Shown piece by piece: positions 7,090-10,039 of a stretch of DNA of 10,039 nt. Made by a program: the position numbers and the translations under genes. Source of the stretch: Sulfurovum sp. GTDB taxonomy: Bacteria; Campylobacterota; Campylobacteria; Campylobacterales; Sulfurovaceae. Position 1 is the first letter of the stretch; each line of letters begins with the position of its first letter. The notes beneath the pieces were generated by a model. The model was not told the origin of the DNA. It saw only the letters and a list, made by a program, of their open reading frames with translations, and did not search any database. The stretch spans positions 1 to 10,039 of the forward strand of contig JAUXGC010000037.1 of the NCBI GenBank assembly GCA_030622375.1, read 5' to 3'.

Positions 7090-7119
7090 AAAAAAATTAA
7101 AATTCTTTATATAATTTTA
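7090..7119 (-). terminator. AT-only intrinsic terminator of the minus-strand operon
   Basis: Read on the minus strand, TAAAATT (7119-7113) pairs with AATTTTA (7104-7098) across an 8-nt loop and is followed by a run of seven T (7096-7090). The 7-bp stem overlaps the stop codon of the membrane-protein gene. The stem is weak (all A/T), but the T-run and the position between convergent operons support termination. Confidence 0.45.
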
Positions 7120-8403
7120 TATATTTGTTGGGTTCATGTCAAATTTTTCACCACTCTTTTGTATTTTTTTGTAGATCAGATGTGCATGTATGATTTGGTA
7201 TGTCATCCATCCAAATGAGAGTATGGTCAATAAACCAGCTAATATTATGAATTTGGGTATAAATATTGACAATATAAAAGCGATGATAGTGGCAAGGTGG
7301 ATATATAGGTGTTTTTTGGCTGTTTTTGGGTGTATGACTTCATGCATCATAGGTGCGGTGAAGTAACCCTGAGAGCTGAGATGAAACCATGTTAAAAATG
7401 GAACAATCTTGTAAAACATAGCAAAGACAATACTAAGTGCAAAAGAGGCAAAGAAAATGTAGCTTAGTGTTTTAACAATAGCCATATCTGTAAAGAGTGA
7501 TATAAGCATTGACAACATACTCAAAAGCAATGAGTTAAGACCTATGCGCCAAAACCAAACTGTTGCATCAGTAAGAGGACGCTTTTTTTCTGTCAATCTT
7601 TTAAGTGTCAATAGAGCATACCCACTGAGCAGTAAAGCAATTAGAATATCAGAGATAAACCAAATACTGTCATTAAAACTTGTCGCTACTGTAGAAAAAA
7701 GAAGTAACATAAAAATTGTCAATGGTAAATAACGACTGACAAGTGTCGGATAAGGTGGCGTTACATAAAACATTTCAATAACTTGAAAAGAGATAGAAAT
7801 GATAAGCAGGGCAATCCAACCAAAAAGACCAAAAGAGTAATGGGCAACTTTAATTTTTGTATAGTAAGTTCCATCTATCACTCCTGAGAGTGTTGCAGTA
7901 AGATAGAGAGCCGAAAGAACGACTATTCCCAGTGAGAGTAGTGCTATTAGTATGCCCTTTGAAGAGCTACTGTGATTTGGAAGACTTAGCAGGTTTTTAA
8001 GCATAGCAAATACAATAAAAAGGATACTTGTTCCTAAAAGCAGTGATGCAAGTCCAAAAAGCCAAGGCTTAGATAAGCCAAAAGCCAAAAGCAACGCAAC
8101 AGTACCCAATATAAAAGGATACTGCACTAAGTTTGCTTTTCGTATGGGAGAGGTAAGTGTTACTCCTGCTATGACTGGCAGCATTTGAAAAAGTGCAGCA
8201 AACATGAATGAAAGCATAACCCCTAGTGTTAGTGTATGAGTTAGTATGATAGCTTCTATGCTATGAGAGTTGAAAATAGTGTCCTGAAAAAAGATAATAA
8301 ATATGCCAGATAGAACACCAAAGAGAGCTCCTGAAAAAAAGAAACGAAATACTACCGATACAGGAGGTGCTTGGTCCAAAGAGAGACCATTTTGGCTAAA
8401 CAC
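7117..8403 (-). CDS. 12-helix membrane protein, heme-copper oxidase subunit I-like / NnrS-like
   Basis: The 428-residue product is strongly hydrophobic with about 12 predicted membrane helices (roughly 17-40, 52-78, 93-111, 114-137, 150-174, 187-214, 225-243, 247-265, 284-304, 309-338, 367-384, 386-409). The helix count and layout resemble heme-copper oxidase subunit I or NnrS-type heme proteins. A histidine lies in helix 2 (H56 in THTLTLGVM) and one at the start of helix 6 (H188 in KVAHYSFGLFGW); H341, H354, H358, H365 and H369 cluster between helices 10 and 11. The paired histidines for CuB and the high-spin heme are not visible, so it is unlikely to be a working oxidase. The start is GTG at 8403, overlapping the DUF2249 gene by 8 nt and so translationally coupled. 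It is the last gene of the operon. A heme-binding or NO-related role is inferred from neighbours. Confidence 0.75.
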   Translation of the reverse strand: MFSQNGLSLDQAPPVSVVFRFFFSGALFGVLSGIFIIFFQDTIFNSHSIEAIILTHTLTLGVMLSFMFAALFQMLPVIAGVTLTSPIRKANLVQYPFILGTVALLLAFGLSKPWLFGLASLLLGTSILFIVFAMLKNLLSLPNHSSSSKGILIALLSLGIVVLSALYLTATLSGVIDGTYYTKIKVAHYSFGLFGWIALLIISISFQVIEMFYVTPPYPTLVSRYLPLTIFMLLLFSTVATSFNDSIWFISDILIALLLSGYALLTLKRLTEKKRPLTDATVWFWRIGLNSLLLSMLSMLISLFTDMAIVKTLSYIFFASFALSIVFAMFYKIVPFLTWFHLSSQGYFTAPMMHEVIHPKTAKKHLYIHLATIIAFILSIFIPKFIILAGLLTILSFGWMTYQIIHAHLIYKKIQKSGEKFDMNPTNI

Positions 8404-8656
8404 TAAATAACTCGCCTAATTGGATATTTTGGTTTTTACAAATGAGTATATGCCAATCTCCTTGCTCATCTTTTTTGCTTGAAACTTGAAAATGTTGTTC
8501 TATGGCAAGATCAAGAAGAGGGATTGGATTTTTGCGATGAATCATATAGAAATAATTCTCCTCATCCAACTCTCTTAGTGCTTTTATAGCAAGCTCAAGA
8601 GGCTTAGGGTGTTCCAGTTCTCTTGCATCAAGTGTTATTTTATGAAGATTTGACAT
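8396..8656 (-). CDS. DUF2249 protein (TusA/SirA-like fold)
   Basis: The 86-residue protein matches my memory of the DUF2249 family: LDARELEHPKPLELAIKALR early on, then an HRKNPIPLL segment (40-48) and a short beta C-terminus (GDWHILICK). DUF2249 shares the small alpha/beta fold of TusA sulfur carriers, but the active-site CPxP is replaced here by HPKP (16-19); the only cysteine is C73. Sulfur transfer through the usual cysteine is therefore not expected, and the histidine might bind metal or heme. In many bacteria DUF2249 proteins occur beside or fused to hemerythrin domains and near nitric-oxide genes, as here. ATG at 8656 is 6 nt after the hemerythrin stop with a poor ribosome binding site, so coupling is likely. 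Confidence 0.82.
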   Translation of the reverse strand: MSNLHKITLDARELEHPKPLELAIKALRELDEENYFYMIHRKNPIPLLDLAIEQHFQVSSKKDEQGDWHILICKNQNIQLGELFSV

Positions 8657-8662
8657 TATTTG

Positions 8663-9103
8663 TTATAGCTCTACTTTTTTCATATTTTCTAAAGTACTCT
8701 CTTTTATTTCAGGAGAAAGGACTCTGTCACACATAGCATAAAGCATCTGCTCTTCTTTCATATTGTGTTGTTGCAGTAAAATCATCATAGATTCACAAAG
8801 AGAAAGATATGAATCTTTGTCTTCAGCTTCAAGCGAATGAGCAAGCTTCCCTATGAGACCTCTTACTTGATCATGCTCAAAACGCATCACTTTAGTTGGG
8901 CCGTCGGTGCTTCCTGTTTGTGTTTCAAATGCTGGAAAAAGCTCCTCTTCCTCTTTTTTAAAGTGTCTTAGAATGTCATTTGAGAATTTTAAAAAGCTCT
9001 CTTCAGCCTTGCTCCAATCAGCATTTGCAGCAGCTTGTTCAGCCTCAGCAAAGCCACTGTCGCAATCTCTGTGTTCTTGCTTCATATATCGTGAAATTAT
9101 CAT
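8663..9103 (-). CDS. Hemerythrin-like (HHE) di-iron protein
   Basis: The 146-residue protein is a single hemerythrin HHE cation-binding domain. The expected di-iron ligand set is complete: H11 in EHRDCD, H47 and E51 in LRHFKKEEEE, H77 in RFEHDQVR, and H113 and E117 in QQHNMKEEQMLY. There is no signal peptide, so it acts in the cytoplasm. Related proteins carry O2, sense oxygen or NO, or (YtfE/RIC) repair Fe-S clusters damaged by NO; RIC has an extra N-terminal domain with a cysteine motif that is absent here. ATG at 9103 has AAGGAG (9115-9110) 6 nt upstream, which overlaps the stop codon of the FmdE-like gene. The second gene of an apparently FNR-type-controlled operon, it is the best functional clue for the set. 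Confidence 0.92.
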   Translation of the reverse strand: MIISRYMKQEHRDCDSGFAEAEQAAANADWSKAEESFLKFSNDILRHFKKEEEELFPAFETQTGSTDGPTKVMRFEHDQVRGLIGKLAHSLEAEDKDSYLSLCESMMILLQQHNMKEEQMLYAMCDRVLSPEIKESTLENMKKVEL

Positions 9104-9113
9104 CTGTCTCTCC

Positions 9114-9722
9114 TTAATTGTTTTTTATTGTTATTATGTTATCCCATTGTTCCGTAGAGAGTAAAATCTTTTCTACCCGCTCTTGCCATAAATTTCCAAA
9201 CTTTTTTTGCTCTTCAGAGGTTGCTATGCCTTTCATGCATTTACCCATCAGAGGTTGCATTGTTGCATCTGCTGGAACCATAGATGAGTCATAACTTAGT
9301 GTAATGCTTTTGTCTATATCTATTCGTGTTAGCTTCACTTCTCCGTCCATAGGGACATCATAGTTTACAAGGTTGTTTCTCGCCATATTTCCGTTTAGAC
9401 CTTTAAATCCGCCAGCGCTACCTGCACCAACTATAAATGAGATAACATTACAGATAACGCCTGTTACTCCATTAGTCTCACTATCTCTCATCGATACTTT
9501 TAGGGACCCTCTTTTAGGGACCTCTTTTCCATAAAGCTCATCAAGACCTTTGCGTGTCATCAGGTATGCCCCTGCAACAGTAGGGCAAGAGTGCCCTGCC
9601 AATTTTACGCAGTCAAGGTAAGTTATCTCTAAATCTCCATCTTCTATGGCTCCTAAAAAGTTACTCAATGAATCATGAAGTTTGATGGGTTGTATTTTGT
9701 CATAAAAAGCAGGATAGTGCAT
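9114..9722 (-). CDS. FmdE-family protein
   Basis: The 202-residue product resembles the FmdE domain family, named after a subunit of molybdenum formylmethanofuran dehydrogenase operons but widespread in bacteria without methanogenesis. The hallmark is C38-x5-H44-S-C46-P in LDCVKLAGHSCPTVAGAYLM, a likely metal site; further cysteines are C91 (GVICNVISF) and C162. A Gly-rich GAGSAGGFKGLNGNMAR follows. No signal peptide is seen. I start it at ATG 9722, which has AAAGGA 8 nt upstream. An in-frame ATG at 9755 would add 11 residues, but it lies inside the -10 element and lacks a ribosome binding site. It is the first gene of the operon, 10 nt before hemerythrin. The reaction is unknown; a zinc or redox-metal role is inferred. 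Confidence 0.82.
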   Translation of the reverse strand: MHYPAFYDKIQPIKLHDSLSNFLGAIEDGDLEITYLDCVKLAGHSCPTVAGAYLMTRKGLDELYGKEVPKRGSLKVSMRDSETNGVTGVICNVISFIVGAGSAGGFKGLNGNMARNNLVNYDVPMDGEVKLTRIDIDKSITLSYDSSMVPADATMQPLMGKCMKGIATSEEQKKFGNLWQERVEKILLSTEQWDNIITIKNN

Positions 9723-9753
9723 AAAATAAGTCCTTTTAGATAATATTAGAATC

Positions 9754-9759
9754 ATTATA
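9754..9759 (-). promoter_or_regulatory. -10 element of the FmdE-hemerythrin-DUF2249-membrane protein operon
   Basis: A perfect TATAAT reads on the minus strand from 9759 to 9754. Predicted start is near 9747, leaving a leader of about 25 nt with the ribosome binding site AAAGGA. The -35 position (9782-9777) reads ATCTAA, far from consensus, as expected of a promoter that needs an activator. Confidence 0.65.
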
Positions 9760-9781: not shown

Positions 9782-9795
9782 TTGATAGCTATCAA
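9782..9795. promoter_or_regulatory. FNR/CRP-family box TTGAT-N4-ATCAA
   Basis: TTGATAGCTATCAA is a perfect 14-bp palindrome and an exact match to the FNR-type half-sites TTGAT and ATCAA with a 4-bp spacer. Its centre (9788.5) lies about 41.5 bp upstream of the predicted start of the minus-strand operon, the standard class II activator position. On the plus strand it overlaps the -35 region of the ferredoxin promoter. The regulator could be FNR, a DNR/NnrR-like NO sensor or another CRP-family member. Confidence 0.75.
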
Positions 9796-9802
9796 GATAA
9801 TC

Positions 9803-9808
9803 TATAAT
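9803..9808 (+). promoter_or_regulatory. -10 element of the ferredoxin gene
   Basis: TATAAT lies 53 nt before the ATG at 9861, with a TTGATA (9782-9787) 15 nt upstream as a possible -35 inside the palindrome. Predicted start is near 9815. An alternative TAAAAT lies at 9823-9828 within a hairpin. With the first choice, a regulator bound at the palindrome would sit at about -26.5 and would block this promoter. Confidence 0.5.
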
Positions 9809-9818
9809 TAAGGAAATA

Positions 9819-9833
9819 GGAGTAAAATACTCC
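9819..9833 (+). promoter_or_regulatory. Leader hairpin of the ferredoxin gene
   Basis: GGAGTA and TACTCC form a perfect 6-bp stem with an AAA loop, about 28 nt before the start codon. If transcription starts near 9815 the hairpin lies at the very 5' end of the mRNA and could protect it; as DNA it could be a second operator. Confidence 0.45.
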
Positions 9834-9860
9834 CAATTAAAACTTTAAAAGGAATTTATA

Positions 9861-10039
9861 ATGATACAAGGCGTACCACAACCAGCGTTTTATATATTTA
9901 AATGTCAACAATCAGCACCTCCAGGGATGCCAAAACCAAGCTGTGTTAGTCAAAATGACCCAGAGTCAGCACAACTTTTTCAACACTTAGCACAATCATT
10001 GATGATGAAAGGTATCATAGCAACGGTTTCACCTATCCA
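9861..10039 (+). CDS. Thioredoxin-like [2Fe-2S] ferredoxin (partial)
   Basis: The gene runs off the right edge; 59 complete codons are visible. The N-terminus MIQGVPQPAFYIFKCQQSAP continues PGMPKPSCVSQ, the pattern of thioredoxin-fold [2Fe-2S] ferredoxins: a beta strand leading to the first cysteine (C15), a P-G-x-P stretch, then the second cysteine (C28) 13 residues on. The other two ligands would lie beyond the window. Such proteins are cytoplasmic electron carriers. ATG at 9861 has AAAAGGA at 9847-9853, 7 nt upstream. It is divergent from the hemerythrin operon and shares its regulatory region with the FNR-type palindrome, which suggests opposite or joint redox control. Confidence 0.8.
   Translation, partial: MIQGVPQPAFYIFKCQQSAPPGMPKPSCVSQNDPESAQLFQHLAQSLMMKGIIATVSPI

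Follow-up and report, generated by a model that had tools for sequence, protein, structure and literature searches.

According to the accessible text of a 2019 review, the Campylobacterota have no orthologs of ArcA, FNR, or NarP, and metabolic regulation in the phylum is an 'enigma' (PMC6682613). The same text links NssA, NssB, and NssC of Wolinella succinogenes, which are CRP/FNR proteins, to nitrate, NO, and N2O. In Nitrosophilus labii, as far as the available part of a second report goes, exact TTGA-N6-TCAA sites start 48-49 bases before predicted starts, and two Nss-like genes lie upstream of nap and nor (PMC11539149). The work of Rodionov and co-workers connects DNA bases with residues 180 and 181 of the recognition helix; in the excerpt of their paper, NssR of Campylobacter jejuni has the box TTAACnnnnGTTAA and the helix residues A180/Q181, and the boxes of DNR, which controls nir, nor, and accessory NO genes in denitrifying Pseudomonas and beta-proteobacteria, resemble TTGATnnnnATCAA (PMC1274295). 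The first-pass annotation of the DNA described here had recognized no precedent in the phylum but NssR, a view that the published NssA/B/C proteins and N. labii sites contradict. Because these are in print, the kind of regulator and site that we describe is already known, and it is new at the level of the family.

We analyzed a window of 10,039 nucleotides, which makes up one entire contig of a draft genome of Sulfurovum sp. (1.43 Mb, 76% complete). At a probability of roughly 0.8, we read a palindrome in this window as a class II operator for a CRP/FNR activator of the DNR/Nss type, which is encoded in a heme d1/denitrification cluster and would switch on the adjoining operon together with nor-type and heme d1 genes. 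The box, the E-x-x-S-R helix, and the class II geometry are those of Escherichia coli FNR, but the Sulfurovaceae regulator lacks an N-terminal cysteine cluster, its first cysteine being residue 82, and an E. coli-type FNR identity is ruled out by the missing N-terminal cysteines. DNR is similar in its TTGATnnnnATCAA box and its regulon, as given in the excerpt (PMC1274295), whereas the Sulfurovaceae protein differs in an invariant Cys92, a C-terminal C-x2-C motif, a Campylobacterota cluster, and an FmdE-hemerythrin-DUF2249 target. NssA/B/C and the Nss-like proteins of N. labii, compared here by their partial descriptions only, share the phylum, the CRP/FNR family, TTGA-N6-TCAA, and class II spacing (PMC6682613, PMC11539149); they differ in that the Sulfurovaceae regulator lies in a heme d1 cluster. 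NssR has in common the CRP/FNR family, an NO regulon, and the phylum. Its TTAACnnnnGTTAA box and A180/Q181 helix, as given in the excerpt, stand against TTGAT and PE..SR in Sulfurovaceae, by which NssR-type regulation is ruled out (PMC1274295).

The palindrome and the leftward promoter

The palindrome, TTGATAGCTATCAA at positions 9782..9795 (assigned to neither strand), can be read directly from the window as a perfect, fully palindromic FNR box. It equals the FNR consensus, as had been claimed for it, and a pattern search returned it as the sole exact match to TTGATN4ATCAA in the window. When up to two mismatches were allowed, nine matches were obtained against 12.4 expected, so that only the exact box is notable. 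First-order Markov copies of the window contained on average 0.054 exact boxes and 0.004 fully palindromic ones, and the whole draft genome holds 11 exact matches, compared with none for the reversed-pattern control. In a single window, the box is only modestly unlikely to occur by chance, and it is the comparison within the family that decides.

On the leftward side, a TATAAT hexamer at 9754..9759 (minus strand) lies 22 nt beyond the box, a spacing that is common in relatives. With an offset of 7 nt, this -10 hexamer predicts a transcription start at position 9747 (minus strand), which places the center of the box, 9788.5, at -41.5. Judged from sequence, the leftward promoter has the class II arrangement, with the box centered at -41.5 and 22 nt to the -10, and the distance of about 41.5 bp given in the first-pass annotation is borne out for a start predicted from TATAAT. 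That annotation had also read dependence on an activator into the absence of a -35, and this has to be given up; C. jejuni sigma70 promoters have no -35 and carry a periodic signal, as stated in the available part of the report on them (PMC3847290), so a missing -35 is not diagnostic. The spacer between the box and the -10 is variable among relatives except at T-rich positions such as -17, which fit the periodic signal in that partial description.

The leftward transcription unit had been called a hemerythrin operon; the operon and its class II spacing stand, but hemerythrin is the second gene, and an FmdE-like protein is encoded first (9114..9722, minus strand, ATG at 9722). The FmdE-like protein matches PF02663 at E 1.2e-4, just under the Pfam cut-off, and all 12 FmdE-like alignment members, the window protein included, match this family at E <= 0.01. 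On the same strand follow the genes for the hemerythrin (8663..9103; PF01814, E 1.8e-22), a DUF2249 protein (8396..8656; PF10006, E 8.5e-11), and a 428-aa membrane protein (7117..8403). The last of these is NnrS-like by eye only and found no counterpart in Pfam (threshold E 0.001) or NCBIfam (threshold 0.01); among the best 120 of its 1043 homologs, the organisms named are Sulfurovum, Epsilonproteobacteria/Campylobacterota, or vent metagenomes, and homologs from the cultured Sulfurovum sp. NBC37-1 and S. riftiae are included. This gene order was found in most of the 30 closest loci, with hemerythrin in 30, the DUF2249 protein in 29, and the membrane protein in 28. A search of titles and abstract openings that covered few subscription journals found, among the papers listed, no report on this operon or on the regulator described below in Sulfurovaceae.

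Conservation in the family and the divergent ferredoxin gene

The FmdE-like protein was matched in 112 of the 150 genomes in the family sample. Two genomes with C-terminal fragments only (G063 and G095) were left out, which gave 110 upstream regions; where FmdE-like copies stand in tandem (G129, G091, G115, and G057), we used the sequence that precedes the first of them, and G065 and G132, which at 40-41% identity may be paralogs, were kept in the set. The full TTGA-N6-TCAA core was present in 74 of the 110 regions, as against 0.9% of shuffled regions, and 62 of the 74 have a -10 at 22 nt. A further 20 regions have seven of the eight core bases as their best match, which alone proves little because 18% of the shuffled regions reach it. 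We also scored a composite feature, defined as a core of at least 7/8 and, 20-23 nt away, a -10 scoring 5/6 or better, and found it in 90 of the 110 regions; in shuffled regions its frequency is 1.5%, and in Markov copies 1.3%. Where the core is complete, 64 instances of a -10 that scores 5/6 or better fall at exactly 22 nt, and no other spacing accounts for more than six. These counts uphold the conservation of the palindrome upstream of orthologous operons in the family.

The full core occurs in 10 of the 11 genera, including 35 of the 41 genomes of the window's own genus, one of 11 in genus g2, and none of 12 in genus g10. The composite feature likewise occurs in 10 of the 11 genera and is absent from the single g3 genome. 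In g2 and g10, most genomes have a 7/8 core, mostly TTGA-N6-TCAT, one half-site having drifted lineage-wide. Among the 20 of 110 regions from which the composite feature is absent, and in the window's own genus, five genomes (G122, G124, G126, G134, and G143) lack the box; in each of them another gene of the CRP/FNR family lies 1.0-1.4 kb upstream of the FmdE gene, and G122 also carries an ortholog of the heme d1-cluster regulator. An exchange of regulators is possible in these five. Outside the family, the full core was found in 10 of 32 genomes (5/6 in family f8, 4/6 in f6, and 1/9 in f7) and in none of the 11 genomes of f4, f9, f10, and f11; in six f7 genomes the core is a 7/8 variant, either TTGC..TCAA or TTGT..TCAA, and a 5/6 match to the -10 stands 22 nt from it.

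A chance palindrome in AT-rich DNA would be the simplest account of the box, and the 0.054 exact boxes expected per window and the nine sites outside promoters among the 17 TTGAY-N4-RTCAA sites of the genome (see below) speak for it. It is rejected here, its likelihood being negligible, because both the site and its 22-nt spacing are conserved in the family; as far as such sequence comparison goes, the palindrome is not a product of chance.

A [2Fe-2S] ferredoxin-like gene (9861..10037, plus strand), cut by the contig end, lies on the other side of the box. A full-length relative (L015:2227-2601) matches 2Fe-2S ferredoxin families with scores below their cut-offs, and the ferredoxin gene is divergent from the operon in 24 of the 30 closest loci. 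The box might mainly repress or tune this gene, since it is situated between both genes and a ferredoxin-side TATAAT starts only 7 nt from it in the window. Across the 24 divergent loci, however, the ferredoxin side has no -10 of at least 5/6 at 22 nt; its spacings vary (nine at 18 nt, seven at 33-34 nt, and others), whereas the leftward 22 nt is kept, and the ferredoxin side has a conserved palindrome of its own. We consider control of the ferredoxin gene through the box very unlikely and assign the box to the leftward operon; the idea of a divergent promoter sharing one operator, as put forward in the first-pass annotation, is accordingly disfavored.

The second near-palindrome, with the core GAGTAAAATACTC, spans 9808..9840 (plus strand). 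Its exact form, GAGTA-N3-TACTC, precedes the ferredoxin gene in 16 of the 24 loci and a relaxed form in 20 of them, and the genome contains seven exact matches compared with one for the reversed control. Five of the matches other than the window's own were opened: three are within open reading frames, one lies some 115 bp ahead of a gene that resembles those for cysteine desulfurase (L369), and another is near a small ribosomal protein-like gene, both genes being named by eye. These data suggest that the near-palindrome is a candidate IscR-like Fe-S operator of the ferredoxin gene.

The regulator gene and its candidate regulon

Searches of the draft genome with PF13545 and PF00027 each found one and the same gene, both over the cut-off, so the genome does encode a CRP/FNR-family regulator, as the first-pass annotation had supposed, although a second may have been missed because the draft is 76% complete. 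The gene (C154:2356-3057, equivalent to L013:1420-2124) codes for a 234-aa protein with a cNMP-binding-type sensor domain (PF00027) and a Crp helix-turn-helix (PF13545), and its nearest named relatives are in Sulfurovum records. It adjoins genes like nirJ, cobA, nirDL (siroheme decarboxylase), and cysG (N-terminal domain), that is, a heme d1 cluster. In relatives, NirJ was found beside the regulator in 25, CobA in 28, and NirDL in 26 of 30 loci, and in one Sulfurovum record (L294) the stretch around the regulator also encodes a COX1-family protein, a NirJ-type radical SAM protein, and NapA.

The recognition helix reads PETFSR in all 30 regulator sequences. In the larger alignment, the E-x-x-S-R pattern is kept, with E176 present in all 81 rows and R180 in 80 of them, a count that includes one mis-extracted row (L355). 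A regulator different from NssR had been predicted from the TTGAT half-site, and the PETFSR helix agrees with this when set against the TTAACnnnnGTTAA box and A180/Q181 that the excerpt gives for NssR (PMC1274295).

We then considered where else in the genome such sites occur. The pattern TTGAY-N4-RTCAA has 17 matches in the genome, compared with four for the reversed control; eight precede a gene and have, 21-23 nt away, a hexamer that resembles a -10 (4/6 or better), and the other nine are in coding sequence or without such promoter context. The eight sites in promoter context belong to the FmdE-hemerythrin-DUF2249-membrane protein operon, to nirDL/cysG (one site serving both directions), to a 113-aa protein followed by an NnrS-like membrane protein, to a nor-type gene group (two sites), to a multiheme cytochrome, to a small membrane protein, where the site overlaps the end of the upstream gene, and to Rieske/petABC (G000:C11:16197-16210).

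Three of these sets were followed into relatives. The nor-type group was matched in 30 of 61 genomes, and 30 loci were opened, with two second copies left out; in all 30, the pattern TTGAY-N4-RTCAA occurs twice, and a -10 that scores 4/6 or better and is oriented towards the genes lies 22-23 nt from each site. We infer the name 'nor' from the domains of its third gene (cytochrome c) and the next one (COX1). For nirDL, 25 opened loci have the gene read towards the regulator gene, and 22 of these have at least 100 nt upstream of it; the site between nirDL and cysG was found in 20 of the 22 (in L062 at about 250 nt) and was absent in L051 and L065. The Rieske/cytochrome bc genes were matched in 56 of 60 genomes searched, and the petABC site was present in only four of 30 loci opened, the window's own included, so that it looks lineage-specific. 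At the level of nucleotide pattern, then, TTGA-N6-TCAA sites at class II spacing stand before denitrification-type genes, and the further FNR-type sites near respiration or NO genes for which the first-pass annotation proposed a search occur at nirDL/cysG and the nor-type group.

Presence of the regulator was compared with presence of the site, an ortholog being scored absent, by hand, when the best E was above 1e-48 or no match was found. The composite site was present in 79 of 89 genomes with the ortholog and in 11 of 21 without it (Fisher p 5e-4, shared descent ignored), whereas the full core alone gave 62 of 89 and 10 of 21 (p 0.07, not significant). The 11 genomes that carry the site without a detected ortholog favor a different ligand, namely another CRP/FNR protein that was missed in the draft or has since been lost, with the co-located regulator serving only nir and nor. 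Six genomes (G007, G047, G209, G218, G222, and G304) fit this account as well, having other CRP/FNR genes beside or divergent to the FmdE gene. Against it, only one CRP/FNR gene was found in the window's genome, and the nir and nor-type promoters share the site architecture; we regard such a second protein as improbable and favor the co-located regulator as the activator at the box.

Invariant cysteines and the likely signal

In alignment rows L287-L366, which include one mis-extracted sequence (L355) and two truncated ones (L341 and L366), three cysteines of the regulator are invariant in the resolvable sequences: Cys92 (80/80) and, in a C-terminal C-x2-C motif, Cys218 (79/79) and Cys221 (78/78). 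The C-terminal tail looks special to the family, since most matches outside the family stop at or before about residue 215 of the 234. AlphaFold modeled the regulator with mediocre confidence: the mean pLDDT is 69.8, and values for residues 216-234 are under 50. The fold matches of this model (TM 0.31-0.45 among the matches listed) support a predicted CRP/FNR fold and, given the quality of the model, are silent on where the cysteines meet. DNR appears among the PDB matches by sequence, where other CRP/FNR chains rank ahead of it, and among those by fold, where FNR and CRP-like chains do.

The three invariant cysteines possibly form an Fe-S sensor. Were this cluster to sense oxygen as in FNR, through Cys92 and the C-terminal C-x2-C motif, the operon would be part of an oxygen or anaerobic response and not an NO response. 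Hemerythrins can bind oxygen, which would suit such a role. A precedent exists in Bacillus subtilis Fnr, whose 4Fe-4S cluster is held by C-terminal cysteines and an aspartate, according to the available text (PMC3520743). The two proteins are alike in having cysteines in a tail beyond the DNA-binding domain; however, the Bacillus protein, in that partial account, uses three tail cysteines plus the aspartate as ligands, whereas the Sulfurovaceae regulator has two tail cysteines plus Cys92 for its putative cluster. In addition, the location of the regulator in a heme d1 cluster and the shared sites before denitrification-type genes are those of a DNR-type regulon. Oxygen sensing is therefore the less likely alternative in our judgment, though the one that we would take most seriously.

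We prefer the reading in which the box is a class II operator of a nitrogen oxide-responsive activator. The signal would most likely be NO or another nitrogen oxide under low oxygen. A regulator dimer would bind TTGAT-N4-ATCAA centered at -41.5 and, from there, contact RNA polymerase beside a -10-only sigma70 promoter, leading to activation. The FmdE-hemerythrin-DUF2249-membrane protein operon, the nor-type genes, the heme d1 genes (nirDL and cysG), and the pair of the 113-aa protein and the NnrS-like membrane protein would be activated together, so that the NO-handling operon would be made together with the machinery for nitrite and NO reduction.

A broader scheme, which we offer tentatively, is that Sulfurovaceae use one CRP/FNR activator for denitrification and NO-defense genes, in which an independently evolved cysteine sensor (Cys92 plus C-x2-C, perhaps with an Fe-S cluster as in Bacillus Fnr) was combined with a retained FNR/DNR box and class II promoters, and that the FmdE-hemerythrin-DUF2249-membrane protein operon forms a core unit for the NO response within this regulon. 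The site, the regulator gene, and the partner sites outline a concrete candidate regulon for nitrogen-oxide respiration that appears conserved in much of the family. The little-studied FmdE-hemerythrin-DUF2249-membrane protein operon would be tied to denitrification, and a cysteine-based sensor is suggested. For a group in which respiratory control is poorly known, the predicted site provides a testable regulator.
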